Assembly: GCF_001570525.1 (NCBI RefSeq)
Contig: NZ_BBXC01000009.1
Span: 550,363-614,362, forward strand
Direction: 5' to 3'
Length of the DNA stretch: 64,000 nt
Origin: Herbidospora sakaeratensis
GTDB lineage: Bacteria > Actinomycetota > Actinomycetes > Streptosporangiales > Streptosporangiaceae
The notes beneath the pieces were generated by a model. That model did not search any database and was not told where the DNA came from. It saw nothing but the letters and a program-made list of their open reading frames with translations. Below are positions 17,194-50,852 of this stretch, piece after piece (positions within the stretch are counted from its first letter, which is position 1; every line of letters starts with the position of its first letter). The position numbers and the translations under genes are program-made.

Positions 17194-17198
17194 GGCCG

Positions 17199-20693: not shown

Positions 20694-20694
20694 G

Positions 20695-21483
20695 ATGCCC
20701 ACCGTGACGCTTGAGGAGCGGCGCAGCCTCGCGCTGGCCGCGACCGGTGCCGAGATCCGGGCCGACGGCGAGGGCGTTGAGCGCTTCCGAGGCCTGGCTT
20801 CGCCGTTCAACGTGCGTGCGCCGATCGGGAACCCGAAGACGTGGGGGTTCTACGAGGAGTTCTCCTTCGGGGCCTACACGAAGACCCTTGCTGAGGGCGA
20901 TCAGCGCATGCTGATCGACCACGCCTCCTACTACGTGGTGTCGCGGGTCTCGGCCGGGAGCCTCAACCTGGCGCAGGCGGCCCGAGGCTTGGACGTCGAC
21001 TCCGCGATGGACAACGAGCTCTCCTACGTGCGTGACCTGAAGGCGAACCTCAGGAACGGCAACATCACCGGGATGAGCATCGGCTTCTACGTGGTCAAGG
21101 ACCAGTGGTCGCTGATCGAGGTAGAAGAGCTCGGAGATGACGGCAAGATTCGCGTCTTCGAGGCGGAGCTCAGGACCGTGCTGGAGGCCCGCCTCCTGGA
21201 GGTCTCCGCTGTCACCTTCCCGGCCTTCGTCGACACGGAGGCCGAACTCAAGAGCGTGTCGCACGCGCTGGTCATGCGCGGCGACGTCGGCGCGGTCGAA
21301 CGCCGCGCTGTCCACCGTCCCGAACTTCGGGACCTGCTGCAGGTCATCGGTCGCGAGCCGGGTGAGACCACTCGCGATGCCGTGCCCTCCGAGCCGGGAG
21401 AGACCACTCGGAAGGGCGTCGACGAGATCGACCTGGCCATGCGGGGGCTGTCCGCCCGCTACGGGCTGAAGCTGCCCGCCTGA
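20695..21483 (+). CDS. HK97-type prohead protease
   Basis: 262 residues from ATG 20695. Features of the U35/HK97 prohead protease: GLASPFNVRAPIG near 36, GAYTKTL near 60, LIDHA (catalytic H near 76), NGNITGMSIGF (catalytic S near 127) and LEARLLEVSAVTFPA near 161. After the protease domain a tail of about 85 residues carries two EPGETTR repeats and could serve as a scaffold fused to the protease. It cleaves capsid and scaffold during maturation. Confidence 0.93.
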   Translation: MPTVTLEERRSLALAATGAEIRADGEGVERFRGLASPFNVRAPIGNPKTWGFYEEFSFGAYTKTLAEGDQRMLIDHASYYVVSRVSAGSLNLAQAARGLDVDSAMDNELSYVRDLKANLRNGNITGMSIGFYVVKDQWSLIEVEELGDDGKIRVFEAELRTVLEARLLEVSAVTFPAFVDTEAELKSVSHALVMRGDVGAVERRAVHRPELRDLLQVIGREPGETTRDAVPSEPGETTRKGVDEIDLAMRGLSARYGLKLPA

Positions 21484-21549
21484 CCCACCGATCCACGCAC
21501 CCGCCGGCCAGCTGCCGCGCGGGTCGTCGTCATGCCCAAGGAGGCACAC

Positions 21550-31162: not shown

Positions 31163-34100
31163 GTGGCGTCGCTGTCGTTCGACCTGTTCGCAAGGGACCA
31201 CGCCAGCAAGGCTTTCCGCGATCTCGGCGACACCGCCGACCGCACCGAGGCGCGCCTCAAGCGGTTCGGCGCGTCGGCCGCGCAGGTCGGCGGGCAGACG
31301 GCTCAGCTCGGCGGCCAGGTCAAGCAGCTCGGCGGCCACTTCCAGGAGATGGGCGGCCGCGTCTCAGCCGCCGGTGGCCGCGTACGGGAGTTCGGCGGCC
31401 GCCTGGGCAGCGTTGGCGGGCAGATCGGCTCGTTCGGCGGCCAGCTGGGCTCGCTGACCGGCCGTCTTCGTGGCCTGTCCGCCGGCCTCGGCGACCTCAA
31501 CGGGCGTATGCAGCTGCTGGGCGGGGTGATGGCCCGGCTCGGCAGCCAGTCGGCCGACCTGGGCCGCGACATGACCCGGCTCGGGTCGCAGGTGTCGCTC
31601 GCCGCTGTTTCGTTCTCCCTGCTGGCGGTGGGCGCTGCCGGGTCCGCGCTCGCCCTCGGCCAGCTGGTCGCGGCGGTCGCCCCGGCCGTCGGCATCCTGT
31701 CGGCCCTGCCCGGCGCCCTGGCCCTGGGCGCCGCCGCCTCCGCCACGCTCCGGGTCGGTCTGCTCGGCATCCAGGAGGGCTTCGCCGCAGCCATCAGCGG
31801 CGACTACGAGACCTTCATCGCAGGCACGAAGAACCTCGCCGCCTCCGCTCAGAACGTCTCCTACGAGCTGTTCCAGATGGCCGGCGCCTTCCAGGGGATC
31901 AAGTTCCGCACGCAGGAGGCTCTCTTCGCGCCGCTGGTCGGCACGATGTCGGAACTCCTGCCCGTGATCAAGGCCGTCGCCGACGGGATGGAGCTCGCCG
32001 CCGCCGCGTTCGGCCGGGCCGCCGTGCGGGTCAAGGAGTTCCTCCAGGAGGCAGAGAGCGTCTCGGCAGTCGAGGCCGTTTTCCGGGACCTCGCGACCAT
32101 CGTTGACACGCTCGCCCCAGCCCTGGCCCCGTTCCTCGGCGGTCTGCGGGACCTGGCCGTCGTCGGCAGCGCGTTCACGACGTCCCTGGCTCCGGGCATC
32201 GCCGCCCTGCTGACCCGGTTCGGGGAGTTCCTCAGCGCGGCCTCGGCCAGCGGTGAGGCTCTGGCCTGGATGGAGGACGCGCTCGCCGTCCTCCGCCAGC
32301 TCGGGCGACTCCTCGCAGACGTGTGGGGTGTCCTGGCCGGCCTCAACACCGCCCTGCAGGCAACCGGCGAAGGCGCGCTCGGCGTCCTGGGCCAGCTCGC
32401 CGCGGCCGCGCACGCCTGGGTCGATTCGGCCGAGGGCCAGCAGGTCCTCATCTCCATCTTCGGCGCGGTGCAGCAGGCCGCTGCCGCGCTGTGGCCGGTC
32501 GTGACCGCGCTCGGCGTTGCCCTGGCCGACCTGGCCCCGAGCGTTGTCGTGCTCGCCCAGGCGATCGGCCCGGTCCTGGTCGCGGCGATCGAGGCGGTGA
32601 CGCCCGCGCTGGCGGCGCTGGTGCCCGGCATGGTTGCCGTGATCTCCGGTGTCGGCGCGGCCATCGGCGCGCTCGCCCCCGCGCTGGTCCCGATCGCCCA
32701 GGTCGCCGCTCAGGTCCTCGCCGGTGTCGGCGGCCTGGTGGCCGCTCTGGGCGGCGCGATCGCCGCCCTCCTGCCCGGCCTACAGGCGCTCGGCGGAGCG
32801 ATCGCCGAGGCCTTCGGCATCATCGCGCCGGTACTCGCGCCGATCGCCGCGCTGCTCGCCCAGGTCGTCGTCGAGCTTGCGCCGCTCATCCCGGCCCTGG
32901 CCCGGCTGGCCGTGACCGTCGTCAACGCGGTCCTGCCCGCCCTGTCCGCCGTGCTGCCGGTCGTCGAGGACATGATCAGCGGGATCGCCGGCCTGGTCCG
33001 CAGCCTGGTCCCGCTGCTGACACCGATCGGCGGCATCCTCGAGCAGAGCCTCGGGCTGCTCCCGCCGCTGCTCGCCGCGCTGACCCCGGTGCTGCAGGCG
33101 CTCATCCCTGCTGCCCGCGCGGTCGGCGCCGCGCTAACCGACGCGTTCCGGCTGGTGATCCCCGAGCTCGCGCCGATCGCGGCCATGCTCGCCCAGCTCG
33201 TCGGCGCGCTGGCTCCGCTGATCCCGATCATCACGCAGATCGCCTTGCTCGTCGTCGACATGCTGCTCCCGGCGCTGATCACGATCGCGCCGTCGCTGCA
33301 GGTAGTCGCGGCCAGCTTGCGGGGCGCGTTCGCCGACCCTCGGGTTCAGGGCGGCATCGCCGGGCTCGCCCAGGCCGTCGCCGACCTGATCCGGCTGGTG
33401 GGCCCGCTGCTGGGCGAGGCCGTGAGGGCGATCGTGCCCGCCCTCACCGCGGTGCTACCCGGTGTCCGGTCGTTCTTCGACACCGTGGTGGCCGGGGCCC
33501 GTGCGCTGGCGCCGTCGCTGGTCCCGATCGGTTCGGCCATCGGCACCGTGTTCCGAGCGCTGGGCCCGGTACTGGTCGAGGTCGCCAGGGCGTTCGCTCT
33601 GCTGATCCCCGCAGGTGCCCAGGTTGTTGCCGCCCTCGCGCCGATCGTGACGGCGATCGTCAGCGCCCTCGCCCCGGCCCTGGCCGCACTCCAGCCGGCG
33701 CTGGTCGTCGTCGGTCAGGCGCTGGCGGCGGCGTTCGCGGACCCGATGGTCGCACCGGCGCTGATGGAGCTCGCGCGCGGCCTGGCGGCGGTGTTCGCCG
33801 GACTGGCCCCGTTGGCGGTGCCGCTGGTCGAGATTGCGGCGATCATCGTGGGCCGCCTCGGCACTGGGTTGCAGCTGCTGGCGGCGCTGCTGGCGCCGGT
33901 GATCGCGCAGCTGGCCGACATGCTGCTGCCGCTCCTGCCGCAGATCGGCGCGCTGCTGTCGGAGCTGCAGAAGGCTGTCCTCCCGGTCGCCGCCGCGTTC
34001 GGTGACCAGCTGGCGACGGCCCTCGAGGCCGTCATGCCGTACCTGGAGCCGATCATGCTCGCCCTCCGCGAAGTCGGCGAGAAGATCATGGCCACGCTGG

Positions 34101-35104
34101 CGGAAGTGATTCCGCAGGTCACACCCTATCTAGGTGCCATGGCCCAAGCCTTCGGGTTGATCTTCGTCGAGGTCGCCAAGATGATGCCGGATCTGATCCG
34201 GCTGGCCGGCGACATCCTCGTCCTGTTCCTGCAGCAGCTCCCGGTGATCGCGCCCATGCTGCTGGACCTGGCGATCGCGTTCCTGGCGATCACGCGAGAG
34301 ATCACGCCGCTGGTGCCCGACCTCGTCCGGCTGTTCCTGGAGTTCGTGACGCCGATCATCCCCAAGCTCCCCGGGCTGATCGGGATGGTGCTGGAGCTGG
34401 CGTGGGCGTTCCAGGACCTGGTGAGCCAGGTCGCGCCCTGGCTGGACAAGTTCCTCGCCAGCCCGGAGGCGATGGCCGGCGTCCAGCTAGCCGCCGCCGG
34501 GGTCGTGCTGGCGATCGACACGCTGGGGCGCGCCTTCAGCATCGCGCTCGGCGCCGTCGAGCTCTTCTTCGGCTGGTTCATCGGCAGCCCCGAAGCGATG
34601 GAGCGCGGCCTCGGCCGCATGGCCGGCGCGATCAAGGGCTGGATCAACGACCTGATCGGCTGGCTGGAGTCCGCCTACAACGCGCTGGCGCGGATGGTCC
34701 CCACCATGCCGCAGATGACCTTCCCTCGCCTGCTCGCCGACGGCGCGATCATCCGCCGGGAAACCCTGGCCGTCGTCGGTGAAGCCGGCCCCGAGGTCGT
34801 CATCCCGCTGACCCGGCCGAAGCGCGCTGTTCAGCTCGCCCAGGAGTCGGGGCTCCTCGATCTCCTCACCCGGACGGCGTCACTCGGGGGCGCCCTGCAA
34901 CGCGGCCCGCAGCTGACGGCCGCGGCGGTGATGGCGGACAGCAGGCGGGCCGCGCCGGTGGTGGTCCGTGGGGCGACGTTCGTCCTGAACTTCCCGGGCC
35001 AGCCGCTGGTCAGCCAGGACGAGATCTTCCGGATGATCCAGTCGGCGGTTTCTGAAGCTGAGTCGCGTGGGTTCCCTTTGACGAGGATCGGGGTCGCGCC
35101 GTGA
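31163..35104 (+). CDS. Tape measure protein
   Basis: 1313 residues from GTG 31163, setting tail length and carrying membrane-active segments. Residues about 35-110 hold a regular series of roughly 7-residue GG units (VGGQ, LGGQ, LGGH, MGGR, AGGR, FGGR, VGGQ, FGGQ), probably coiled coil. From about 150 on, long hydrophobic, Ala/Leu/Pro-rich segments repeat the theme LAPxIAxLLAQLVxALAPLIPxI, typical for actinophage tape measures. The C-terminal 150 residues include a GEAGPEVVIPL motif common in these proteins. At about 1.5 angstrom per residue (known rule) the tail would be near 0.2 micrometres. Confidence 0.93.
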   Translation: MASLSFDLFARDHASKAFRDLGDTADRTEARLKRFGASAAQVGGQTAQLGGQVKQLGGHFQEMGGRVSAAGGRVREFGGRLGSVGGQIGSFGGQLGSLTGRLRGLSAGLGDLNGRMQLLGGVMARLGSQSADLGRDMTRLGSQVSLAAVSFSLLAVGAAGSALALGQLVAAVAPAVGILSALPGALALGAAASATLRVGLLGIQEGFAAAISGDYETFIAGTKNLAASAQNVSYELFQMAGAFQGIKFRTQEALFAPLVGTMSELLPVIKAVADGMELAAAAFGRAAVRVKEFLQEAESVSAVEAVFRDLATIVDTLAPALAPFLGGLRDLAVVGSAFTTSLAPGIAALLTRFGEFLSAASASGEALAWMEDALAVLRQLGRLLADVWGVLAGLNTALQATGEGALGVLGQLAAAAHAWVDSAEGQQVLISIFGAVQQAAAALWPVVTALGVALADLAPSVVVLAQAIGPVLVAAIEAVTPALAALVPGMVAVISGVGAAIGALAPALVPIAQVAAQVLAGVGGLVAALGGAIAALLPGLQALGGAIAEAFGIIAPVLAPIAALLAQVVVELAPLIPALARLAVTVVNAVLPALSAVLPVVEDMISGIAGLVRSLVPLLTPIGGILEQSLGLLPPLLAALTPVLQALIPAARAVGAALTDAFRLVIPELAPIAAMLAQLVGALAPLIPIITQIALLVVDMLLPALITIAPSLQVVAASLRGAFADPRVQGGIAGLAQAVADLIRLVGPLLGEAVRAIVPALTAVLPGVRSFFDTVVAGARALAPSLVPIGSAIGTVFRALGPVLVEVARAFALLIPAGAQVVAALAPIVTAIVSALAPALAALQPALVVVGQALAAAFADPMVAPALMELARGLAAVFAGLAPLAVPLVEIAAIIVGRLGTGLQLLAALLAPVIAQLADMLLPLLPQIGALLSELQKAVLPVAAAFGDQLATALEAVMPYLEPIMLALREVGEKIMATLAEVIPQVTPYLGAMAQAFGLIFVEVAKMMPDLIRLAGDILVLFLQQLPVIAPMLLDLAIAFLAITREITPLVPDLVRLFLEFVTPIIPKLPGLIGMVLELAWAFQDLVSQVAPWLDKFLASPEAMAGVQLAAAGVVLAIDTLGRAFSIALGAVELFFGWFIGSPEAMERGLGRMAGAIKGWINDLIGWLESAYNALARMVPTMPQMTFPRLLADGAIIRRETLAVVGEAGPEVVIPLTRPKRAVQLAQESGLLDLLTRTASLGGALQRGPQLTAAAVMADSRRAAPVVVRGATFVLNFPGQPLVSQDEIFRMIQSAVSEAESRGFPLTRIGVAP

Positions 35105-41624: not shown

Positions 41625-41705
41625 GCAGGGGCTGAGCACGTGGTGGGCTCACCTGGCTGTAACCCAGGCGCTTCGGCCGTGGCGGTTCGACTCCGTCCTC
41701 CTGCA
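41625..41705 (+). tRNA. tRNA-Tyr (anticodon GUA), class II
   Basis: Folds as a class II tRNA: acceptor GCAGGGG (41625-41631) with CTCCTGC (41698-41704, one G-U); D arm GAG/CTC with GG in the loop; anticodon stem CCTGG/CCAGG (41652-41656/41664-41668) with loop CTGTAAC, anticodon GTA; long variable arm CGCTTCGGCCGT (41669-41680) as expected for bacterial tRNA-Tyr; T arm GGCGG-TTCGACT-CCGTC. Discriminator A; CCA not encoded. It sits inside the element, between phage late genes and the transfer module. Known: the AICE SLP1 integrates at a tRNA-Tyr gene. Confidence 0.87.
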
Positions 41706-41718
41706 CCCACGCACGGCA

Positions 41719-41745
41719 ACGCCCCCACCATCACGGCGGGGGCGT
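41719..41745 (+). terminator. Terminator after tRNA-Tyr
   Basis: ACGCCCCC (41719-41726) and GGGGGCGT (41738-41745) are perfect complements, followed by TCGTCATTCC. Confidence 0.7.
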
Positions 41746-41771
41746 TCGTCATTCCAGGGAGCGCTCAGCGA

Positions 41772-41810
41772 TGTGTGATCATGGCTTATAAAATTAGCCA
41801 TGATCACACA
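41772..41810. repeat. Perfect 15-bp palindrome with AT-only 9-bp centre
   Basis: TGTGTGATCATGGCT (41772-41786) is exactly inverted at 41796-41810 around TATAAAATT. Very A/T-rich for this genome. Contains GTGATCAT in each arm, also present at 40947-40954, and ATGGCT/AGCCAT, similar to the ATGGC(C/T)AT boxes before the second GntR gene. Operator, origin or transfer-related site are all possible; it is a poor terminator because no G/C stem or T tract follows. Confidence 0.75.
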
Positions 41811-41865
41811 CGGGTGATCTGAGCTGCGGAATCACCGCGATTCCTGGCGTCACAGCCTCGCCCCG

Positions 41866-42051
41866 ATGTACGGATCCGCCGCCGGGCCGCCTCTTGCAGG
41901 TATGGACATCAACCCGCTCGCGCTCCTGCCCACCGACCTGACCGCCGCGATGCACCCCGGCGAGCGCCTCGCCTACCTCGCGGCCCTCGACGAGGACCCG
42001 CCGCCCGCGCCTTCTTGGGCCGCCGGGCTCCTGGCCCTCCGGTTCAGCTGA
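41866..42051 (+). CDS. Small hypothetical protein (49-61 aa)
   Basis: Open from ATG 41866; the internal ATG 41902 (MDINPLALLPTDLTAAMHPG) may be the true start. Helical, acidic C-terminus (LAYLAALDEDPPPAPSWAAGLLALRF). Located just downstream of the large palindrome and ended by a hairpin. Weakly supported. Confidence 0.4.
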   Translation: MYGSAAGPPLAGMDINPLALLPTDLTAAMHPGERLAYLAALDEDPPPAPSWAAGLLALRFS

Positions 42052-42065
42052 CCCAGACACGACGA

Positions 42066-42095
42066 AGCCCCCGACGCCATCAGGCACCGGGGGCT
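42066..42095. terminator. Bidirectional terminator between convergent genes
   Basis: AGCCCCCG (42066-42073) and CGGGGGCT (42088-42095) are perfect complements; located between the small plus-strand gene and the 3' end of the PP2C gene. Confidence 0.7.
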
Positions 42096-42109
42096 CCTCC
42101 AGCGGGGGC

Positions 42110-42802
42110 TCAGCCCACGCGCAACAGGACCACCGTCGCGTCGTCCCGGTAGCCGTCCGCCTCCTGCTCGGCAGCCGCGACGATCAGGTCAGCGAGCGCC
42201 TGGAGGTCACCGTCGGCGTGCTTGCGCACGAGGGCCTCGAGCGTCTCGCGCGGCATCTGGTCGTGTACGCCGTCGCTCGTGAGCACGAGCAGCTGCTCCG
42301 CCGGGATGTCCACCTCGCAGACGGTTCCCGGGGTGGCCTGGGCGAGCGAGAGCGTCAGGATGTTGTCGCTCGCCTTGGCGACCTCCTCGGGGATATCGCC
42401 GCGCTCGCGTAACCGCTGCCCGGCGGTGTGGTCGACGGTGTACTGGTGCAACGCCACGCCGTCCCAGCCGTAGGCCCGGCAGTCGCCGATCCACGCGACC
42501 GCGACGTGCGGGGATCCGGGCGCGGCCACGGCGACCACCCCGACGGCGGTGGGGGTGGCGTCGTCGGCGCCTGGGTCGGCGACCATGCCGCCGGCGGTGA
42601 GGATGCCGGCCAGGGCGCCGCGCTGGGCTCCGTAGTGGGCGGCCACCTTGGCGAGCGTGGGCGCGAGGTCGTGGATCTGGTCGGCGTGTCCGACGCCGTC
42701 GATGACGGCTGCGGCGAGGGTCCAGTCTCCGGCGGTGTAGGTGGCGGTGGCGTCGGCCAGGCCGTTGTCGGTGCCCTGTCGCTGGGCTACGGCGGTGATC
42801 AT
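42110..42802 (-). CDS. PP2C-family Ser/Thr phosphatase
   Basis: 230 residues; ATG at 42802 chosen because GGAGGA lies just upstream, whereas upstream in-frame codons run through the repeat cluster. PP2C motifs: VIDGVGH (D35-G36), DDATPTAVGVVAV near 83, AWIGDCRAYGWDG near 105, LTSDGVHD near 178 and YRDDATVVLL at the end, including the metal-binding aspartates. It has the minimal catalytic-domain length without extra sensors. It lies downstream of the transfer genes and could dephosphorylate a regulator; the HATPase protein at the other end of the module is a possible partner. Confidence 0.85.
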   Translation of the reverse strand: MITAVAQRQGTDNGLADATATYTAGDWTLAAAVIDGVGHADQIHDLAPTLAKVAAHYGAQRGALAGILTAGGMVADPGADDATPTAVGVVAVAAPGSPHVAVAWIGDCRAYGWDGVALHQYTVDHTAGQRLRERGDIPEEVAKASDNILTLSLAQATPGTVCEVDIPAEQLLVLTSDGVHDQMPRETLEALVRKHADGDLQALADLIVAAAEQEADGYRDDATVVLLRVG

Positions 42803-42859
42803 GTGTCCTCCTTCACGGCTGCGCGTGGGATGCGCGAGCCATAGTTTTTGATCTTGAAT

Positions 42860-42988
42860 GGGGGTGCAACAGATGGTGCAACACCCCCTGCAACGCAGGG
42901 CTGTTGCAGGGGTGCAACGGGGGTGCCACGGCGCTCTGACCTGTAACACCCTCGCCCGTTGCACCCCCAGCCCCTCGCGAGGCGCAAC
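42860..42988. repeat. Cluster of GGTGCAAC repeats 3' of the translocase gene (candidate transfer locus)
   Basis: Copies on the plus strand: GGGGGTGCAAC 42860-42870, GGTGCAAC 42875-42882, CTGCAAC 42888-42894, GGGGTGCAAC 42909-42918, degenerate GGGGGTGCCAC 42919-42929, GGCGCAAC 42981-42988; inverted: GTTGCAG 42903-42909 and GTTGCACCCCC 42958-42968. Known: Streptomyces TraB binds 8-bp direct repeats in clt, near traB. Here the repeats lie directly 3' of a TraB-like gene. They also precede the PP2C gene and could instead be operators. Confidence 0.65.
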
Positions 42989-42990
42989 AC

Positions 42991-45237
42991 CTACTCCGGC
43001 CGGGCCAGCATGAGGTGGCGCTGGGCCTCCTCGTCGTAGCCGAGCACGCCCTCGTCGCGGAGTTTCCGCAGGCGCTTCTGCGCCCAGGACCGCGTCGCGT
43101 CCGTCGTCGTCCACAACGCGGCCAGATCACCGGTCTGGAACTCACGTCGGTCGGCGTCCCACCAGTCCCGCAGCAGGGTGAGCAGCGCCGCCCGCTTCTC
43201 GGCGTCGGTCATCTTCGGCCCCGACTCGAACCGCCACGGCGGGTCGCCCTCGGGGATGTCCGGGATCTCACCGTCGGCGTCGGCCACCAGCTCCGGGTCT
43301 GGGTCGTCGGTCTCCACGTACTCCCCGGCGACGTCGCCCAGGTCCTCCTCATCCTCGTCCACGACCTCCTCCTCAGGGTCGTCGCCCTTCAGCCGGGCCA
43401 GCAGCTCCGGCAGCTCATCAGGACCCACCAGCACCTGGCGGGCGGCACCCTCACGGGGCGGGCCGAGAACCCCGATGTCGGCCAGCGCCGACTCCAGCGC
43501 CTTCGCCTGCTCGAACGGCACCCGCGCCTTACGGTGGATCATCTGCGGCGACCCGAACTGGCTCTCCACCACCATGGCGGCCGCGAGCGCCAGCAGCTCG
43601 GGGTCGACGGCGGACGCCGCCGGTGCCACTGCCGATGCCGGCGCCTCCGGCTGGACGAGCCGCGACAGCCGGGCCGTCGTCTCGTCCACGTCCCTCGCCG
43701 CCGCCGGCCACTGCGCGGCGTACTCCCGCATCGACGCGTTCGCCAGCTCGTCGTCGAACACGCCATGCTCGTCGATGCCCCACGCGAACGTGCGCATCGG
43801 CATCGCAATCCGGCCGTCATCGATCCCCGGCGCGTCGAGGTAGGCCATCCCAGGCTTGGCGTTCGTCCACAGCTCCGGCCGCGCCCCCGCGTCCTCCTGC
43901 CGCTCGCTCAACCCGAAACTGGCGTCGCCGCTGTTCTCGACGCCGAAGCACATCTTCGCCAGCTGGCCCCTGGCCAGGGTCGGCATCTGCGTGTAGTCCG
44001 ATCGCTGCAGCGACATGACGATCGTGCCGCCGGCCGACCGGATCGCCTTGAGCATCGACAGGAACTTCTCCTGCTCATCGGAGGTCATGCAGTCGAAGAT
44101 GTCGGGGAACTCCTCCAGCCAGATCAGCCAGTAGGTGAGCCCGCACCCGGGCTTCCACTTGGCCAGCCCCTTGCTGGCGAGGTAGTCGGTGCGCGGCTTC
44201 ACCTCCTTCTGCAGCTCCGACAACATGGCTCTGACCCCGGCCTTGGTCGTCTCGAACCGGTGCAGCGCCGGGCGGAGCGGGCCGAGCGTCTGCTCGCCCT
44301 TGGTGATGTCCCCGGCGAACACCGCACCGTCCTTGCGGGACATGAACTCGGCCAGGTAGTTCCAGGCGCCGCCGAATCCCTTCCCGGCACCGGTCATGCC
44401 CATCATCTGGAGGTGATGGCCGGGGATGACGTAGGCAAGTTCGTCGAGGTCCTGCCACAGCGCCAGCCGGAACGGCTCGGCCACGCTCGCTCCAGGGCGG
44501 GATGGGCCCGGCCACGGGATGGCGGCGTTCATTACGCGCGGATCCGAGATGACGACCTTTGCCTTGCTGGAGTTGTCGGGGTCGATGCTCGTGGTGACCG
44601 ACCCGGGCGGCAGCTCCATCCCCGACTCGATGTAGGCGATCTTCCGCTGCAGGTCCTCAGCCGTCATCTGGCCGGGCGGCAGCTGCACGTCGGCCTCGAC
44701 CTTGTGGTCGCCGCGGGCCGTCGTGGTCGCCTCCAGTTCGGGCATCCCGGCTCGCTTCGCCCCGTCGCCGAACAGCGCCTTGAGCGGGTCGCTGGCGACG
44801 GCCTGGACGTCGACGCCCTTCACGCGGATGACCGACCGGATGTTGAACGAGATGGCGAGGGCGACCCCGCCGATGATGATGGCCCGCCCGGTGAAGGGGG
44901 AGACCGGGCTGTTGATCGTGGCGGCGCACACCCACATCCCGGCCGCGAATGTCGTCAGCGTGGTGTGGAGCCGCCCCTGCAGGCTCCGGGCGTGGGACTG
45001 CGTCCACGTGTAGACGGTCAGGCCGAGCACGCACGCGGTGATCCCCGCCGTCGTCCACGCGACCACCTGGGGGTCGTCGCTGGACAGCGTCGCGAAGAAG
45101 AACCAGCCGAGGCCGTACAGCAGAACCCCGGCGATCCACGGCGGCGTGTAGAGCAGCACCTTGTTGAGCTCGCGCTCGCCGGGCTTGCTGCCGGTCTGCT
45201 CCTCGACCGGGGCGGGGCGCGTAGTGGTGCGGGCCAT
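42991..45237 (-). CDS. FtsK/TraB-like membrane DNA translocase
   Basis: 748 residues. About four membrane helices in residues 30-137. Motor domain with Walker A GMTGAGKG (280-287; the residue after Lys is Gly, not S/T, which is unusual), MSRKDGAVFAGDITKGEQ near 305, Walker B-like YWLIWLEEFPDIF near 371 and TIVMSLQRSDYTQMP near 413. Residues about 545-625 resemble the FtsK gamma winged helix that reads short repeats. An acidic linker and a second winged-helix-like end (GDLAALWTTTDATRSWAQKRLRKL) follow. Known: in Streptomyces plasmids and AICEs one such protein (TraB/TraSA) suffices to move dsDNA. It overlaps the upstream gene end to end. Confidence 0.85.
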   Translation of the reverse strand: MARTTTRPAPVEEQTGSKPGERELNKVLLYTPPWIAGVLLYGLGWFFFATLSSDDPQVVAWTTAGITACVLGLTVYTWTQSHARSLQGRLHTTLTTFAAGMWVCAATINSPVSPFTGRAIIIGGVALAISFNIRSVIRVKGVDVQAVASDPLKALFGDGAKRAGMPELEATTTARGDHKVEADVQLPPGQMTAEDLQRKIAYIESGMELPPGSVTTSIDPDNSSKAKVVISDPRVMNAAIPWPGPSRPGASVAEPFRLALWQDLDELAYVIPGHHLQMMGMTGAGKGFGGAWNYLAEFMSRKDGAVFAGDITKGEQTLGPLRPALHRFETTKAGVRAMLSELQKEVKPRTDYLASKGLAKWKPGCGLTYWLIWLEEFPDIFDCMTSDEQEKFLSMLKAIRSAGGTIVMSLQRSDYTQMPTLARGQLAKMCFGVENSGDASFGLSERQEDAGARPELWTNAKPGMAYLDAPGIDDGRIAMPMRTFAWGIDEHGVFDDELANASMREYAAQWPAAARDVDETTARLSRLVQPEAPASAVAPAASAVDPELLALAAAMVVESQFGSPQMIHRKARVPFEQAKALESALADIGVLGPPREGAARQVLVGPDELPELLARLKGDDPEEEVVDEDEEDLGDVAGEYVETDDPDPELVADADGEIPDIPEGDPPWRFESGPKMTDAEKRAALLTLLRDWWDADRREFQTGDLAALWTTTDATRSWAQKRLRKLRDEGVLGYDEEAQRHLMLARPE

Positions 45238-45635
45238 CAGTCGTCATCCCAGTTGAACGAGCTCTTCTGCTGCTTCTCCGGCTTCGCCTGCGGCAGCACG
45301 TCGACGAACTCCTTACGGAACTGCGCGTGGAACTTCACCAGCTCCACCGACGCACCCCGCTCCAGCTCGGCCGCGCGCTTCAGCCGGCGCACGACGCGGC
45401 GGGCGCGCAGCCGGACGTCGGGGGCGCCGAACAGGGCGAGCACCGGGTGGCCCTTGAAGGAGCGGATGAGGACGGCGTACAGCTCGGTCGAGGCGAGGTT
45501 GAACTCCTCGCCGAGGTCGCGGACGAGGGCGCGGCCGACGCGGGCGTAGTCGGTGATCGCGCGCGGCCCCTCCCAGGGGATCTGCTCCAGCTCGGGGATC
45601 CGGGCGCGGCCGGGCTTATCGGGTGTGGCGGCCAT
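45237..45635 (-). CDS. Transfer-module protein of unknown family (132 aa)
   Basis: Helical, basic middle (VRLRARRVVRRLKRAAELERG) and acidic end (KSSFNWDDD). The stop abuts the translocase start. The first half (EFNLASTELYAVLIRSFKGHPVLALFGAPDV) has no motif known to me. Possibly an accessory of the translocase, as small Tra/Spd proteins often sit here in AICEs. Confidence 0.55.
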   Translation of the reverse strand: MAATPDKPGRARIPELEQIPWEGPRAITDYARVGRALVRDLGEEFNLASTELYAVLIRSFKGHPVLALFGAPDVRLRARRVVRRLKRAAELERGASVELVKFHAQFRKEFVDVLPQAKPEKQQKSSFNWDDD

Positions 45636-45831
45636 GGTGCGCCTCCAGGTCGTTCTTGATCAGCGTGCGGATCTGGCGGATGAGGGTGGCGGCGCGGCGC
45701 GTTCCGAGCCGGGCAGTGACCCACGCGTCGACCGCGCCGGCGACCAGGACGGCGAGGGCGCCGACCCAGACCACGGCGTAGAGGAACGCGGCGAACAGCT
45801 CCCGGGCGAGCGCTCGAAGGTCGTCCATCAC
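45616..45831 (-). CDS. Small membrane protein (71 aa)
   Basis: One long hydrophobic segment (LFAAFLYAVVWVGALAVLVAGAVDAWV) flanked by charged ends; basic C-terminus. It overlaps the genes on both sides, so it belongs to the same transcript as the DUF2637-like gene and the translocase. Spd-type small membrane proteins are typical of actinomycete transfer operons. Confidence 0.55.
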   Translation of the reverse strand: MMDDLRALARELFAAFLYAVVWVGALAVLVAGAVDAWVTARLGTRRAATLIRQIRTLIKNDLEAHHGRHTR

Positions 45832-47363
45832 GAGTCCCGACCGGTCGTGGCGGCGACCAGTTCGGCGACCGGCGGGATGGGGGTCCCGTCCTCAGCGAAC
45901 GTCCACCTTTCGTCGGCGAGAAGCTCGCGGCCTTCCCTGATGCGGTCGAGGCACCAGGTCTTCTTGAAGCCCGACCGGTCGGCGAGGGCTCGGTTCGAGA
46001 GGACCTCACCAGCCTTCACGCGCTTGGCCCAGTACCGTGCGACACGGCGTCTGTCCTGCTCGGTGGGCTGTTTCTGGTCGCGCGACCGGTCGTCATCTGG
46101 TCGCGACCGCTCCTCATCGGCGACCACTTCCGCGACCGCCACGGACCCGTTGACCGCGACCGACCCGCGACCGGCGATCAGCTCTCGCACCGGTCGCGCG
46201 ACCGGTCGCCCGTCGAGGGTGACGAACCGGCTCCCGGAGACCGGCCAGACGGCCCGAGCGAGCCTCGACCCGAACGCGTCCACCGGGGCCTCGGCTCCGT
46301 CCCGACCGGTCGCGTGAATGGTCGCGACCGGCAGGGTGGTCGCGACCAGTCCGCGGCCAGTCCGCGTCCGCCACGCCTCGAAGTCGGCGACCGCTTCGGC
46401 GCCGCGGGCGTCCGCTGCCGCGACCACCTCGTGGTCGACCGGGCCGCGCAGCGCCGGGTGGTTGAGTCGCTTCCACGGGCCGACCGGGGTCAGTTCCACG
46501 AACGTCTGCGCGTCCATCGCCGCGGCGTAGTCGACCAGCCGACGCTGGATGGTCTCGTCGGAGGCCAGGCCGGTGTGCTCGACCGCCTTGTCCATCGCGC
46601 GGTCGACGCGGTCGAGGGCGGCGCGCTGGCGGCGCTGCGAGGCGCCGGTCTCGCGTAGGTGGCGGGCGCGCTTGGCGGCCAGGGCGACGCGGGTGAGGCG
46701 GCGGTGGGCGTCGACGTCGCTGGCGGTGCGGTCGCTCGACTCGGCCAGGCCGAGGCGGACCATCGCGCGCTCGGGGGTGAGCCGCCAGTGGATGCGGTGC
46801 CGGCCGGTCAGCTTGACCCGCTCGATGGCCATGCCGCGCTCCCACAACCACGCGGCGACCAGCGGCGCGGCGAGGCGGAAGATCGCCTCGGCGACGCTGG
46901 CGGCGTCCATGGCCGACAGGACGGCCGACAGGCCGGTGAGCACCCACACCGCGAGGCCGTCGATGCCGGCCGCGTAGTTCTCGCGCATGTTCCGGCGGGC
47001 GCGCACCGCCGAGGTGATGACGGCGACCTCGATGAAGGCGAACAGCAGCAGCCGCAGCGGGCCGTCGAACCCCAGCACGTCGCCGGCGAACTGCCACATG
47101 CCCTGCGCGGACACACCGGTCGCGACACCGGCCGCGACGATGGTCAGAACGTCCTCGAGGGTGCGGGGCCTGACGAAGAGCACCAGGCGCCGGAGGACGT
47201 AGGCTGCGGCCGCGCCGATGGCTACCCATTTGAGTGCCCAGAGGCCGAACTCGATCCAGGCGACGAGCTGGGCGTCGAGCGGCACGGGGAGTTCCACGCC
47301 GAGCAGGTGCCCGGTTTGTGGGGGTGGACCAGCGGCGATGCCGTGGTCAGGATATGTGGTCAT
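45828..47363 (-). CDS. DUF2637/Spd-like membrane protein
   Basis: 511 residues from ATG 47363; TTG 47384 is an alternative but AGGGA fits the ATG. About five membrane helices in residues 30-180 (LWALKWVAIGAAAAYVL, LTIVAAGVATGVSAQGMWQFAGDVLG, LRLLLFAFIEVAVITSAVRARRNMRE, GLAVWVLTGLSAVLSAMDA, IFRLAAPLVAAWLW): the pattern of DUF2637 proteins of Streptomyces conjugative elements. A long cytosolic part follows, ending in an HTH-like stretch (LSNRALADRSGFKKTWCLDRIREGRELL). A role in plasmid spread through mycelium is inferred from family context. Confidence 0.75.
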   Translation of the reverse strand: MTTYPDHGIAAGPPPQTGHLLGVELPVPLDAQLVAWIEFGLWALKWVAIGAAAAYVLRRLVLFVRPRTLEDVLTIVAAGVATGVSAQGMWQFAGDVLGFDGPLRLLLFAFIEVAVITSAVRARRNMRENYAAGIDGLAVWVLTGLSAVLSAMDAASVAEAIFRLAAPLVAAWLWERGMAIERVKLTGRHRIHWRLTPERAMVRLGLAESSDRTASDVDAHRRLTRVALAAKRARHLRETGASQRRQRAALDRVDRAMDKAVEHTGLASDETIQRRLVDYAAAMDAQTFVELTPVGPWKRLNHPALRGPVDHEVVAAADARGAEAVADFEAWRTRTGRGLVATTLPVATIHATGRDGAEAPVDAFGSRLARAVWPVSGSRFVTLDGRPVARPVRELIAGRGSVAVNGSVAVAEVVADEERSRPDDDRSRDQKQPTEQDRRRVARYWAKRVKAGEVLSNRALADRSGFKKTWCLDRIREGRELLADERWTFAEDGTPIPPVAELVAATTGRDS

Positions 47364-47405
47364 CGGGTCATCCCTGGGTTGCAAGGGGTGATGGTCTTCG
47401 GGCCC

Positions 47406-47493
47406 GGCCCCGTCTGGCGCTTCGATCGCTCAGACGGGGCCGTCGTACTTGGTGGGGTCCGGCCTCCGCTCTCCCAAGTCAGAGACCGGACCC
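47406..47493 (-). terminator. Two strong hairpins in the gap before the DUF2637-like gene
   Basis: GGCCCCGTCTG (about 47406-47416) with its exact complement at 47431-47441, and GGGTCCGG (about 47455-47462) with CCGGACCC (47486-47493). The 172-bp gap between the 47536-47817 gene and the DUF2637-like gene holds nothing else clear. They may separate two minus-strand transcripts or shield a promoter for the transfer genes. Confidence 0.6.
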
Positions 47494-47535
47494 GGGCCTG
47501 CCCCCCGCTCGGGGGCCCACGGGCGGGCAGGCGGT

Positions 47536-47817
47536 CTAAGGGGCCAGTCGGAGCCCGGCGGCCACCACGCGCTGCTCCGGGTCCGCCCCCGCCGGAGCCT
47601 CGTCCACGACGACCATCACCGCGCGCCCGTTACCGGCGACGCGCGTGACCGTGGCCGTGCAGCCCATCAGCCACTTGGGCGGTTTGAACGGGGCCACCGC
47701 CCACTCGTCGGTGAGGAGCTTGTCGACGACCACCCGGTCGCCGACCTTGAAGCCCGCCAACTCGGCGGCCCCCACGGGCTCCGAGATGCGGCGGAACAAC
47801 TCTCTGTCCGTCGTCAC
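47536..47817 (-). CDS. Small hypothetical protein (93 aa), SH3/KOW-like
   Basis: FKVGDRVVVDKLLTDEWAVAPFKPPKWLMGCTATVTRV... is a beta-barrel-like pattern as in KOW/SH3 modules. ATG 47817 overlaps the upstream gene stop by 4 bp. Function unknown. Confidence 0.5.
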   Translation of the reverse strand: MTTDRELFRRISEPVGAAELAGFKVGDRVVVDKLLTDEWAVAPFKPPKWLMGCTATVTRVAGNGRAVMVVVDEAPAGADPEQRVVAAGLRLAP

Positions 47818-48134
47818 CGCGCCCTCCCTGCCAGCAGGTCAGCCCAAAGACGGGCAACCTCGGGTTCGGCCGCGGGCGCCGTCTCCTTCAGGCTGTCGGT
47901 CCGGGTGCCGGTGCTCGTGCGCCACCGGATCCGCAGCAGCGGCACGCCGGTGTCGTGCGAGACACACAGCTCGTAATCGTGTCCGTCCTCGGGGGAGGCG
48001 GTGTCGACGACGCGCACCTCGGCGGACAGGTCGGCCTTGCGCCAAACGAGCTTGGTGGCATCGGGCTGGGGCGGCTGGATCGGGGGGCGACTGCTGGTGA
48101 GAGGCCCCCGCCCGAACGGGCGGCGAGTGGTCAT
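47814..48134 (-). CDS. Hypothetical protein (106 aa)
   Basis: N-terminal basic/proline-rich linker (RRPFGRGPLTSSRPPIQPPQP), then a beta-rich part (LSAEVRVVDTASPEDGHDYELCVSHDTGVPLLRIRW) and a terminal helix. It overlaps its neighbours by 4 bp on both sides, so it is part of the 48538-47536 transcript. Family unknown. Confidence 0.5.
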   Translation of the reverse strand: MTTRRPFGRGPLTSSRPPIQPPQPDATKLVWRKADLSAEVRVVDTASPEDGHDYELCVSHDTGVPLLRIRWRTSTGTRTDSLKETAPAAEPEVARLWADLLAGRAR

Positions 48135-48538
48135 CGCGATCTCCCCGCGAGCATCTCGGGGCCGAACTCCACCCAGGCCAGATACTCACCACCTGCGGTA
48201 CACCCTCCGAAGTCCCGCACCTTCCGTGACACGTCGTCCCACACCGCAGGGCCGGGCCGGGTCGGCTGGCCGGCCGGGTCGCGGACTTCGACACGCAGCC
48301 TGCCGCCGTCGAGCATCTGAGCCCGGACCGAGATCTGGTCGCGCTCGCGCGTGTGACGGACAGCCGACGCGACGAGGGCGTAGACGACTTCGGCGGCCCG
48401 GTCGGCGAGGTCGGGCTGCTCGTGCTCAGCGATCGTCCGGATCCATTGCGCGGCCTGGAGAGGGGCGGCGTCGGTCCCGGGGAGTGTCTGGTTGTAGGGG
48501 GCCAGTGCGGCGGGTGGTTCACTCACAGGGGATCCCAA
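48131..48538 (-). CDS. Anti-sigma-type HATPase protein
   Basis: 135 residues, start TTG 48538 (GTG 48526 possible). Features of the small HATPase_c/anti-sigma regulatory kinase family: N-box-like AAEVVYALVASAVRHTRE near 50-65, and DPAGQPTRPG (G1-like D-x-x-G) near 88. No N-terminal sensor. Known members bind ATP and sometimes phosphorylate anti-anti-sigma factors; in actinobacteria many copies are of unknown role. It is divergent from the GntR gene with an operator dyad directly in front. Confidence 0.6.
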   Translation of the reverse strand: MGSPVSEPPAALAPYNQTLPGTDAAPLQAAQWIRTIAEHEQPDLADRAAEVVYALVASAVRHTRERDQISVRAQMLDGGRLRVEVRDPAGQPTRPGPAVWDDVSRKVRDFGGCTAGGEYLAWVEFGPEMLAGRSR

Positions 48539-48592
48539 CCTTAGGCGTAAGGCTCTGTATCATCGGCCTTAGCTTGCAACCTTACGGGTAAG
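48539..48592. promoter_or_regulatory. Two CTTA-N4-TAAG operators between divergent genes
   Basis: CCTTAGGCGTAAGG (48539-48552) and CCTTACGGGTAAG (48580-48592), 41 bp apart centre to centre, flank the divergent promoter region of the HATPase operon and the GntR gene. Such CTTAC-GTAAG dyads are plausible GntR sites; autoregulation in the manner of KorSA is inferred. Confidence 0.7.
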
Positions 48593-48610
48593 CACGTCAA
48601 GCTATGGCGT

Positions 48611-49381
48611 GTGGATCACACCTACCAGCGCATCGCCGACGACCTGCGGCGCAAGATCACCTCAGGAGAGCTCGCCGTCGGCGACCAGCTGCCGTCGATC
48701 CCGACGATCAAGCGCGACTACGGGGTAACCAGCGGCACAGCCCAAGCCGCCATCCGCCTCCTCGTCGCCGAAGGCCACGTCCTCACAAGGAGCGGGTCGG
48801 GCTCCTACGTTCGCGACCGGCCACAACTCCGCGCCCTCACCCGCTGCTGGGACCGCGCCCGCCGATCCGGGAGCCCCTTCGCCGCCGAGATGGAAGCCCA
48901 AGGCCGCGTCGGGTCCTGGGAGTACGACTCCCGCACCGCACAGGCCCCCGACCACGTCCGCGAACGCCTCGACCTCGCTGCCCCCGACGGCGACAACCCC
49001 GACGTCCTCCACACCCGCTACCGCTTCAAAGCCGACGGCCGCACCGTGATGCTGAGCGACAGCTGGGAGCGGCTCGACGACACCCGCGGCACCGCGATCG
49101 TCCTGCCCGAGGAGGGCCCGCACGCCGGCCGCGGCGTGGTCGAGCGCATGCTGGCGATCGGCATCCGAATCGATGGGACCGACGAGGTCGTGGGGGCCCG
49201 GCTCGGGTCGGCGGATGAGTGCAGGCTGCTGGAGAGACCGCCGGGCTCTGTCGTGTTGACGATCAAGCGGTCGTACGTGGCGAGCGGACGGGCCGTCGAG
49301 ACCGCCGACCTGGTGCTGCCCGCGGACTTGTTCGAGCTCGTGTACGGGTGGCGGATCGATCCGCCGGACGAGCAGGACTGA
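48611..49381 (+). CDS. GntR/HutC-family regulator (KorSA-like)
   Basis: 256 residues from GTG 48611. Winged HTH about 1-70 (YQRIADDLRRKITSGELAVGDQLPSIPTIKRDYGVTSGTAQAAIRLLVAEGHVLTRSGSGSYV is spread across it), then a UTRA effector domain about 90-245 (GSWEYDSRTAQAPDHVRERL ... LHTRYRFKADGRTVMLSDSWERL ... VLTIKRSYVASGRAVETADLVLPADLFELVYGW). Known: KorSA/KorA of this family represses transfer and excision genes of Streptomyces elements. Divergent placement and dyads support a repressor of the minus-strand module. Confidence 0.88.
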   Translation: MDHTYQRIADDLRRKITSGELAVGDQLPSIPTIKRDYGVTSGTAQAAIRLLVAEGHVLTRSGSGSYVRDRPQLRALTRCWDRARRSGSPFAAEMEAQGRVGSWEYDSRTAQAPDHVRERLDLAAPDGDNPDVLHTRYRFKADGRTVMLSDSWERLDDTRGTAIVLPEEGPHAGRGVVERMLAIGIRIDGTDEVVGARLGSADECRLLERPPGSVVLTIKRSYVASGRAVETADLVLPADLFELVYGWRIDPPDEQD

Positions 49382-49395
49382 GTTGACCGTCGAAC

Positions 49396-49424
49396 GGCCG
49401 TCTTCCCTGCGAGGGAGGGCGGCC
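49396..49424 (+). terminator. Terminator after GntR gene
   Basis: GGCCG + TCTTCCCT (49396-49408) pairs with AGGGAGGG + CGGCC (49412-49424) via a 3-nt loop, including G-U pairs; followed by CTTCGTGTTTTCG. Confidence 0.7.
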
Positions 49425-49452
49425 CTTCGTGTTTTCGCAGCTAGTGATCCTC

Positions 49453-49500
49453 ATGGCCATGATGGCTATATGGCCATATGGGGATGTGGCCATCATGGCC
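49453..49500. promoter_or_regulatory. Four GGCCA(T)-type palindromes upstream of second GntR gene
   Basis: ATGGCCAT (49453-49460), ATGGC-TATATG-GCCAT (49462-49477) overlapping the perfect ATATGGCCATAT (49468-49479), and TGGCCA (49487-49492) followed by another ATGGCC at 49495-49500. The stretch is A/T-rich. It reads as a tandem operator for the adjacent GntR-type regulator. This also shows that translation should start downstream, at ATG 49516. Confidence 0.7.
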
Positions 49501-49515
49501 AGTACGGTCGCGATC

Positions 49516-49974
49516 ATGGTCAGGGGGTCAGGCGCCGGGCAGATCAAGCCCCACACGGGTGTGGCGGTCTACCGCCAGCTGGCCAGCATCATCCGCGACC
49601 AGATCGCCACCGGCCGGCTCCGGCCCGGGGACAAACTGCTGACCCAGGACACCTACGTCTACGAGTACGGAATCGGCGTTGACGCCGTCCGCGACGCTCT
49701 CGCCATCCTCCGCTCGGAAGGGCTGATCGACACCACCCGGCAGGGTTCGGTGGTGCGCCGGCCTCCGCAGCGCGCCGACGTGACGCTGGGGCCCGGGATG
49801 CGGGCCATTGTTCGCATGCCTACGGAGCGGGAGCGTCATGACATTGGGCTGCCGGAGGGGGTGCCGGTAGTCGTGTTCGAGAAGCCCGGGGGAGAGATGG
49901 AAGTTCTAGCGGGTGATCGAATCGCGCTCGTCGGCAATCATGAGCAGGACGCGGCGGGGGGGCGGTCCGGTTGA
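49516..49974 (+). CDS. Short GntR-type winged-HTH regulator
   Basis: About 152 residues from ATG 49516; an in-frame ATG at 49429 is unlikely because it would place the operators inside the gene. GVAVYRQLASIIRDQIATGRLRPGDKLLTQDTYVYEYGIGVDAVRDALAILRSEGLI spans a complete winged HTH. The rest is too short for a UTRA domain (MRAIVRMPTERERHDIGLPEGVPVVVFEKPGG), with only an N-terminal UTRA-like part, so it may lack an effector site or be truncated at the element border. It is the last gene before attR. Confidence 0.75.
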   Translation: MVRGSGAGQIKPHTGVAVYRQLASIIRDQIATGRLRPGDKLLTQDTYVYEYGIGVDAVRDALAILRSEGLIDTTRQGSVVRRPPQRADVTLGPGMRAIVRMPTERERHDIGLPEGVPVVVFEKPGGEMEVLAGDRIALVGNHEQDAAGGRSG

Positions 49975-49975
49975 C

Positions 49976-50010
49976 GGGTCACCCCGGCACTATCCATGCC
50001 GGGGTGACCC
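49976..50010 (+). terminator. Strong hairpin after the last element gene
   Basis: GGGTCACCCCGGC (49976-49988) and GCCGGGGTGACCC (49998-50010), a perfect 13-bp stem with a 9-nt loop, directly after the GntR stop. Confidence 0.8.
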
Positions 50011-50125
50011 CCATGTAGACCGCACCGACAGCCTCTCGCCCCGGGAAGGACAAGGCCGGCGGTGCGGCGCCCAACCCTCGCCTAAGGCGGCGGTGCAGAC
50101 ACACATGGAATGTCGGATCGTAGCT

Positions 50126-50155
50126 GACGTATTACGTCATGTCACGTAATACGTC
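50126..50155. repeat. Perfect 12-bp inverted repeat near the att junction
   Basis: GACGTATTACGT (50126-50137) and ACGTAATACGTC (50144-50155) around CATGTC. Each arm is itself close to a palindrome (GACGTA-T-TACGTC). A second dyad, TCTCTTGA (50173-50180) and TCAAGAGA (50194-50201), follows. Both lie on the element side of the junction and may be recombinase or excisionase binding sites. Confidence 0.75.
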
Positions 50156-50199
50156 GTCTGACTGATCAATACTCTCTTGACCAGCGACAATGCTCAAGA

Positions 50200-50222
50200 G
50201 ACATTGGCGTATGGTGGCGCAT
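50200..50222. other. Inferred right attachment junction (attR) in comM
   Basis: From GCGCATCGCGGC (50217 on) the sequence encodes the conserved comM core AHRGILFLDEAPEF; just upstream (MLKRHWRMV) it no longer resembles ComM, which normally reads as a continuous AAA+ domain with a Walker A. The crossover is therefore inferred at roughly 50200-50222. The duplicated core cannot be defined because attL is outside the window. Confidence 0.65.
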
Positions 50223-50852
50223 CGCGGCATCCTGTTCCTCGACGAGGCGCCGGAGTTCCCGCCCCGGGTGCTCGACTCGCTCCGCCAGCCGGTCGAGTCG
50301 GGCCAGGTCACGGTCTCGCGGGCGAACGGCTCGGTGACGTTCCCGGCCAGGTTCACCCTGGTGCTGGCCGCCAACCCGTGCCCGTGCGGGCTCAGCGGCG
50401 AAGCGGGGCGGTTCTGCACCTGCACTCCGTCCGTCCGGCGGCGCTATCTGTCCCGCCTGTCCGGCCCGCTGCTCGACCGGGTCGACGTGAAGGTACGGCT
50501 CTCGCCCCCCACCCGGGCCGAACTCCTCGCCGACCGCGCGCTCACCGAATCCAGCGCCACCGTCGCCGAACGGGTCGTCGAAGCCCGCGAACGCGCCGCC
50601 GCCCGCCTGACCGGCACCCCCTGGCGCCTCAACGCCGAGGTCCCCTCGTCGCTCCTGCACGGCGGCTGGCGCCTCGATCATCGCGTACTGGCCCCCCTGC
50701 ACCGCGCCGTCGACGTGGGCACCCTCAGCGCCCGGGGGGTCGACCGCGTGCTCCGGGTGGCCTGGACGATCGCCGACATCAGCCGGCGTCCCCGGCCGTC
50801 GGCCGACGAGATCTCACTGGCACTCACGATGTGGATGGGAGAGGAACTGTGA
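50211..50852 (+). pseudogene. comM: comM/yifB (Mg-chelatase-like AAA+ ATPase), 3' part
   Basis: Encodes the Walker B region (HRGILFLDEAPEF), sensor segment VLAANPCPCGL with the Cys cluster (CPCG ... FCTC), SGPLLDRVDVKVRL and the C-terminal Mg_chelatase_C domain. The N-terminal Lon-like domain and Walker A are missing because the prophage replaces the 5' part. Upstream in-frame ATGs (50190, 50211) could give a truncated product that should be inactive as an ATPase. Intact ComM is a helicase-like factor for natural transformation; here the lysogen would lack it unless the element excises. The stop overlaps the dprA start. Confidence 0.9.

Follow-up and report, generated by a model that had tools for sequence, protein, structure and literature searches.

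Phages and conjugative elements are usually regarded as separate vehicles, and a locus of Herbidospora sakaeratensis raises the question of whether one element can be both. The locus lies in a 64,000-nucleotide stretch of contig NZ_BBXC01000009.1 (positions 550,363 to 614,362 of the forward strand; hereafter the window, with coordinates counted from its first letter). A first-pass annotation, made from the letters alone, had read it as a siphophage prophage carrying a conjugation module like that of actinomycete integrative and conjugative elements (AICEs). We retain the core of that reading, as both parts lie inside one att-bounded element and the module has a clt-like site, but not the suggested nesting of two elements or a DUF2637 label. 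The combination of prophage and transfer module is real and recurrent: several related prophages combine a one-protein system for double-stranded DNA (dsDNA) transfer with a putative recognition site of its own. We favor, with moderate confidence, the interpretation that the element is a temperate siphophage for which a TraA-TraB-clt module of the Streptomyces plasmid and AICE kind would provide an added, TraB-type route of dsDNA transfer.

A single prophage in comM

The block from 41.6 to 50.2 kb lies inside a single 59.85-kb siphoprophage that interrupts comM in the chromosome of its soil actinomycete host (genome size, 8.6 Mb). The element measures about 59,853 bp (59,856 bp counting both copies of the att core). 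Its landmarks, including the left end outside the window, are as follows (aa, amino acids).

About -9632 (L003:10367-10369, some 9.63 kb left of the window): attL core CAT, from sequence reading of the comM junctions
5670..8444, plus strand: Prim-Pol/D5 primase-helicase (PF09250, PF08706)
17190..17750, plus strand: terminase small subunit (TerS), by profile
17754..19247, plus strand: terminase large subunit (TerL), transcribed towards traB, by profile
19314..20693, plus strand: portal, by profile
20524..21483, plus strand: head maturation protease, by profile
21532..22800, plus strand: major capsid protein, by profile
31163..35104, plus strand: tape measure protein, 1313 aa, by profile
50190..50852, plus strand: frame containing the 3' half of comM (Mg chelatase; PF01078 and PF13335, Mg_chelatase and Mg_chelatase_C)
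50220..50222: attR core CAT, from the same reading of the comM junctions

The 5' part of comM ends at L003:10369, the 3' part restarts at 50220, and host DNA follows from 50223; the att site noted at the right end of the block thus sits inside comM. An open comM frame of 526 to 570 aa is present in all six congeners, and the unbroken junction is displayed for the three that fit the search pattern. Compared by eye, the two prophage ends have only TGGCnCAT in common, which fits the expectation for a serine integrase. Inspection of the left flank, which the first-pass annotation had advised, found such an enzyme at the other end of the prophage, a 486-aa serine recombinase that begins about 30 bp inside attL (Resolvase PF00239, E = 1.3e-30; Recombinase PF07508, E = 3.3e-10).

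The genes for TerL, portal, capsid, tape measure, and integrase all fall within one att pair, as expected of a temperate siphophage. Profile searches recovered the full morphogenesis set that had been recognized from the letters (TerS, TerL, portal, protease, capsid, head-tail adaptor, tape measure, and minor tail). All of these genes are open frames, and the capsid is of the HK97 type. The Prim-Pol/D5 gene is common to related prophages (60% identical in G166 and 57% in G152 by tblastn).

The TraA-TraB module and its clt-like cluster

The transfer module sits between the right-end phage genes and attR. Its tra operon runs from 48538 to 42991 and ends in traA and traB; all open reading frames (ORFs) of the module are open. 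The core of the module consists of the following three features.

42861..42992: clt-like cluster, directly 3' of traB, with GGTGCAAC at 42863, 42875, and 42911 (plus strand) and 42958 (minus strand) and degenerate copies
42991..45237, minus strand: TraB, FtsK-type dsDNA translocase, 748 aa (NF041214; tblastn to plasmid TraB; AlphaFold model and Foldseek)
45237..45635, minus strand: TraA, 132 aa, two long helices (NF041213; predicted local distance difference test [pLDDT] of the model, 85)

TraB matches the NCBIfam model plasmid_TraB (NF041214) at E = 7.9e-114 and 381 bits, under the model's 800-bit equivalog cutoff. Its AlphaFold model (mean pLDDT 70) has four N-terminal helices (residues 33-50, 56-83, 86-109, and 114-139) and two winged helices, one FtsK_gamma-like (546-617) and one C-terminal (678-743); by hydropathy alone, the N terminus shows three clear membrane segments. 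A Foldseek search with the model returns FtsK motors first (E = 8e-12) and then the conjugation protein TcpA (2.3e-10). These results uphold the initial description of an FtsK/TraB-type translocase with four N-terminal helices and a winged-helix end.

By tblastn (E = 0.001), TraB matches 78 of 72,556 plasmid records, and among the 40 matches listed, 16 are annotated as plasmid transfer protein TraB. The same search matched only 3 of 50,697 phage records, in the gamma domain and over 8 to 10% of the query, which makes an ordinary actinophage FtsK an unlikely identity. Close homologs in lytic actinophages, which would have spoken against a conjugative module, were thus absent in this search, which covered TraB and not the gene labeled DUF2637. 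PHROGs family phrog_24831, of unknown function, matches TraB residues 26 to 484 (E = 9.9e-82), so relatives are already known among viral or prophage proteins. TraB has no match to Pfam PF01580 at E = 0.1, and an AICE survey based on PF01580 could therefore overlook it. TraA matches NCBIfam plasmid_TraA (NF041213) at E = 6.9e-10, under the equivalog cutoff, and pWTY27 TraA by profile at E = 7.3e-11. A TraA homolog adjoins TraB in 35 of 37 other contexts, and no PDB entry resembles the fold of TraA at E = 0.001 or better.

Plasmid pWTY27 (NC_013667.2) resembles the window in having a GntR gene divergent from an operon that ends in traA-traB, with short repeats at the traB 3' end, and we judge its core order (GntR / DUF2637 / traA / traB / clt) to be the same. 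According to the accessible text of PMC3583192, which calls the translocase TraA where the sequence record calls it TraB, clt comprises 16 bp of the tra gene and 159 bp beyond, with footprinted TGACACC repeats in the Tra-protected stretch, and both the tra gene and clt are required for transfer between strains. We verified these repeats at 9805, 9816, 9823, and 9842. The pWTY27 TraB matches our TraB profile at E = 2.5e-88, leaving the gamma-domain stretch of the profile unmatched. The two elements differ in that pWTY27, a plasmid of 14 kb, lacks a set of virion genes and repeats TGACACC rather than GGTGCAAC; it holds a lone phage capsid gene, which its authors call unexpected.

In both its position and its style of sequence, the window's cluster corresponds to this experimentally mapped clt. 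Four of the six GGTGCAAC copies in the window fall within 103 bp (42863-42965), just past the traB stop, while 1.8 are expected per whole window; the repeat cluster noted beside the translocase is real and spans about 130 bp. In a first scan, of 360 bp, 29 of 38 loci showed a cluster on the traB 3' side that beats shuffled sequence (p ≤ 0.05). Named genomes and IMG/VR supplied a second, partly overlapping set of 66 distinct loci, and 49 of the 65 testable ones have a cluster at p ≤ 0.05.

The clusters of relatives are built of related 8-mers on the same side, of the GGTGCAAC, GGTGCCAC, GGGGCCAC, GGTGTCGC, GTGACGC, and GTGWCA types. Across 35 loci (G060, G173, and G025 excluded), the nearest neighbor predicts the repeat class correctly in 32 cases by the C-terminal 110 residues and in 27 by the motor, and the area under the curve is 0.76 by the C-terminal helix versus 0.66 by the motor. 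The TraB motor of the window is nearest that of G071, a GGTGCCAC locus; the window shares its repeat with G079 and G158, whose helices its own resembles. The residue that follows the conserved Trp of the helix is Phe or Ile in all five GGGGCCAC loci and Ala, Val, or Cys in the 19 GGTGCCAC loci whose helix is readable. TraB of pSVH1, as cited in the accessible text of PMC3583192, is a hexamer that reads 8-bp repeats via its winged helix. That the repeat varies with the C-terminal winged helix more than with the motor is the best evidence for the GGTGCAAC cluster as a putative TraB docking site, and it offers a way to predict which clt a given TraB reads.

Recurrence and exchange of the module

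Among 250 genomes sampled from the host family, 47 have a TraB match at E = 1e-30. They contain 33 TerL loci (phrog_9) and 58 TraB loci, counted by hand from tables, and these form 8 pairs within 47 kb where 0.46 is expected, a difference that dismisses chance linkage. In IMG/VR, a scan located 15 TraB loci; they are spread over 14 contigs, and a phrog_9 TerL is present on 7 of these. Gene contexts were read for the window, 34 of the 58 genome loci, and 3 plasmid-collection loci from the 78 matching records. All 12 distinct TraB-TerL pairs counted as phage are convergent, with the two genes 20 to 31 kb apart (G000, G152, G166, G158, G181, G196, L138, L145, L149/L150, L141, L140, and L148). L144 was dropped because its TraB C terminus equals that of G196, and L149/L150 was counted once because the two are alike over the last 300 residues. 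Searching other genomes for TraB together with phage genes, much as had been proposed, reveals similar prophages. One 91.9-kb contig, IMGVR_UViG_2895374923_000001 (L140 and L148), carries two TraB and two TerL genes, each pair convergent, and perhaps represents adjacent prophages.

The window and the prophages of G152 and G166 are similar in TerL (77 and 85% identity, respectively), portal (56%), and capsid (55-56%), but their TraB proteins are only 35 to 36% identical. Compared with G158, TraB is 62% and TerL 43% identical. On the motor tree, the label "phage" (nine rows, labels assigned by us) requires eight changes, seven of them forced by well-supported branches. Close phages with very different TraB proteins, together with these changes, indicate that the slot is kept while the module is exchanged. 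At L208, a 223-aa frame fuses a piece of the TraB motor to the TraB winged-helix end and is probably a deletion remnant.

The element would be a variation on the plasmid-phage or conjugative prophage, with a transfer module that is itself already known. The literature searched (titles and abstract openings, largely outside preprints and subscription papers) yielded no description of a TraB/clt module in an integrated prophage. The plasmid-phage pZL12 (phage ZL12, NC_013420) likewise joins phage genes and a conjugation locus in one element. It differs in being a plasmid with ParA/ParB and an annotated Tra3-like gene (first 45 of the 90 kb of the record), and it was rejected as a sequence relative because the record has no TraB match at E = 0.001. 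The accessible text of PMC3218068 defines an AICE as one integrated element with an integrase, a Prim-Pol type replication gene, and a TraB-type translocase. The prophage has all three (PF00239/PF07508, PF09250/PF08706, and TraB), the replication gene being common to related phages, but it lacks the PF01580 match by which that survey recognizes Tra. It is unlike AICEs of the pSAM2, SLP1, and pMEA300 type in its full siphovirus set and in a size about four times that of the ~15-kb elements found here. Phi1207.3 of Streptococcus pyogenes is a 52.5-kb prophage in a com gene, similar to ours in size and insertion, and its transfer meets an operational definition of conjugation (PMC4260502, accessible text). 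That paper describes the mechanism as still to be elucidated, and its main text makes no mention of "FtsK". The 145-kb plasmid of Thermobispora bispora ZC4 (NZ_CP039125) has a capsid gene, a TraB homolog after small genes, a divergent GntR gene, and six copies of GGTGTCAC on the traB 3' side. It differs in lacking a phrog_9 TerL and in its TraB (45% identical over 58% of the query), and a relative of the window's 518-aa membrane protein lies on the opposite side of traB.

A proposed route and its alternatives

The remaining features of the block are as follows.

41625..41707, plus strand: prophage-borne tRNA-Tyr(gta), diverged (tRNA scan; canonical host copy elsewhere in the genome)
42110..42805, minus strand: SpoIIE/PP2C-type phosphatase, flanked by the tRNA and the clt-like cluster, by profile
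45616..45831, minus strand: 71-aa protein with two hydrophobic segments (hydropathy), Spd-like by position only
45828..47384, minus strand: 518-aa protein with four hydrophobic segments in its N-terminal part (hydropathy), Spd-like
47536..47817, minus strand: small operon protein, no match over the cutoff in profile scans
47814..48134, minus strand: small operon protein, no match in profile scans
48131..48538, minus strand: first operon gene, weak match to a phage transcriptional regulator family (phrog_12354, E = 2.2e-6)
48536..48592: putative operator, with CAACCTTAnGnGTAAG present twice in the gap that separates the operon from the divergent GntR gene, by repeat reading
48611..49381, plus strand: GntR/UTRA regulator, divergent from the operon, in a KorSA-like position (PF00392, PF07702)
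49429..49974, plus strand: second GntR-type regulator (PF00392)
49444..49527: TGGCCAT dyads where the second GntR frame begins, by repeat reading

The domain matches, the CAACCTTAnGnGTAAG copies, and the TGGCCAT dyads agree with the initial reading of a GntR (KorSA-like) pair with operators; the true start of the second gene may be later, as its GntR domain begins at residue 48. The DUF2637 label of the 518-aa protein is not supported: scans with Pfam and NCBIfam give no match of the protein to this family, and the DUF2637 model finds two loci in the whole genome, neither within the window. The family of this protein is present in six other contexts, five of them labeled phage, and the two membrane-protein families align over only 48 C-terminal columns. 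A palindrome between the tRNA-Tyr and phosphatase genes (41765-41817) has 25-nt arms that are 84% complementary, contains GATCATGGC half-sites, and resembles the dyads of the second GntR gene.

In the route that we propose, the GntR proteins would keep the divergent tra operon off until release, and the prophage would excise as a circular element. TraB would form a hexamer in the membrane, dock by its C-terminal winged helix on the GGTGCAAC cluster of the excised circle, and pump the dsDNA molecule in full through cross-walls or into a hypha in contact with the donor. Once inside the recipient mycelium, the DNA would spread with the aid of the membrane proteins, and re-insertion in comM would fall to the serine integrase. 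The phage would retain two routes, virions and cell-to-cell transfer. Judged from sequence, a conjugative function of the module is probable, and the element may spread both as a virion and by conjugation. If the module works, phage spread need not rely on lysis or receptors.

Several observations weigh against this interpretation. The Walker A motif of TraB reads GAGKG, with the Gly after Lys pointed out in the first-pass annotation, and departs from the canonical GKS/T; most relatives have Ser or Thr at this position, which makes ATPase activity uncertain. In the 360 bp at the traB 3' end of the window, the top 7-mer is weak, with four copies, a count also reached in 2 of 60 shuffles and in 10 of 40 control windows. 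The top repeat is no better than shuffles (p > 0.05) in 9 of the 38 loci of the first scan, although four of these nine (G230, G005, NgerC, and G187) have five to seven copies of GGTGCCAC within about 1 kb 3' of traB, in agreement with their helices; in the second set, 16 of 65 loci are without a significant cluster. The 0 of 5000 permutations obtained for the covariation is not a strict probability, because classes and context labels were assigned post hoc and related loci are not independent. For as many as 50 of the 58 TraB loci, no phrog_9 TerL lies within 47 kb, a count that misses other terminase families and pairs split by contig breaks, and the many TraB loci without nearby phage genes imply that the module needs no phage. 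Two of the eight genome pairs stand outside the 12: in G200 the genes are not convergent and a cluster-2 gene lies closer, and G003 is a small element. G079 and G239 (tape measure relative) and Tbis (capsid gene) were labeled phage on weaker grounds, all three without a phrog_9 TerL in the neighborhood of traB; the tape measure relative of G079 sits on the other side. Finally, the putative Spd role of the proteins at 45616-47384 rests on topology and position.

Three other explanations were considered. TraB and the clt-like cluster could move phage DNA through the cross-walls of its own mycelium, or aid partition, instead of serving transfer between mycelia. The motor is of the FtsK kind, and six of the nine phage-labeled TraB copies, the window's included, have an FtsK_gamma-like domain; this domain also occurs in ten AICE- or plasmid-like copies, however, and the TraA-TraB-clt order is that of pWTY27, where it is needed for transfer between strains. 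We consider this explanation unlikely, though it deserves some weight. Improbable to a further degree is that the module is decayed or chance cargo, captured by recombination with an AICE or plasmid, in which the Walker A Gly marks lost function. The Gly and the tree, which demands at least seven context changes on well-supported branches, speak for decay. All module ORFs are open, however, and the repeat cluster and helix still match, while position and orientation are kept in many prophages. GAGKG is also found in 2 of 37 other aligned TraB proteins (G071 and G108), and GAAKT occurs in three relatives (Tbis, NgerP1, and G225), so the Gly is not a private lesion. Insertion of an AICE into the prophage at tRNA-Tyr is very improbable: the block does begin at this gene, and in a related prophage (G166) a canonical tRNA-Tyr adjoins a gene from cluster 2, read as tyrosine recombinases, but the second att repeat looked for near 41.6 kb is absent, no direct tRNA repeat of 13 bp or more occurs in the window or the 20 kb to its left, the longest repeat common to the block edges, at 11 bp, is as long as the mean for shuffled sequence, the ten block genes scanned include no integrase, and the tRNA-Tyr has diverged from the canonical one that the host has elsewhere.

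With dsDNA transfer preferred, a wider proposal can be made tentatively. In a family of Streptosporangiales siphoprophages, a fixed slot at the right end may be reserved for an exchangeable TraAB-clt module, which would give these phages two horizontal routes. The same module may reside on small integrated elements with a TerS, capsid, or tape measure gene, about 15 kb in size where their ends were delimited. Phages, satellites, and conjugative elements would then share one transfer system, its specificity changed by swapping the winged helix and repeat cluster together.

Six loci look like candidate phage satellites with a conjugation module. Two of them, G230:C4 (L050-L052) and G003:C42 (L075-L076), are TraB elements of about 15 kb in comM, at a site other than the prophage's. 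Both have an integrase of the same cluster (33) as the window's and a cluster-4 gene, the G169 member of cluster 4 matching Prim-Pol. The G230 element holds one capsid gene (PF05065) and the G003 element both terminase subunits. A tape measure is found in G101 (L081-L082) and G123 (L053-L055), its relative in G005 (L097-L098), and TerS in G123 and G071 (L048-L049). Only the G230 and G003 elements are delimited, and the lack of further virion genes was judged from gene strings. All six belong to one TraB clade (support 81/91), and they also carry replication genes, by profile or by our reading. Serine-integrase elements interrupt comM at two codon positions, one used by the prophage and another by the ~15-kb elements of G230 and G003, which makes the gene an insertion hot spot.

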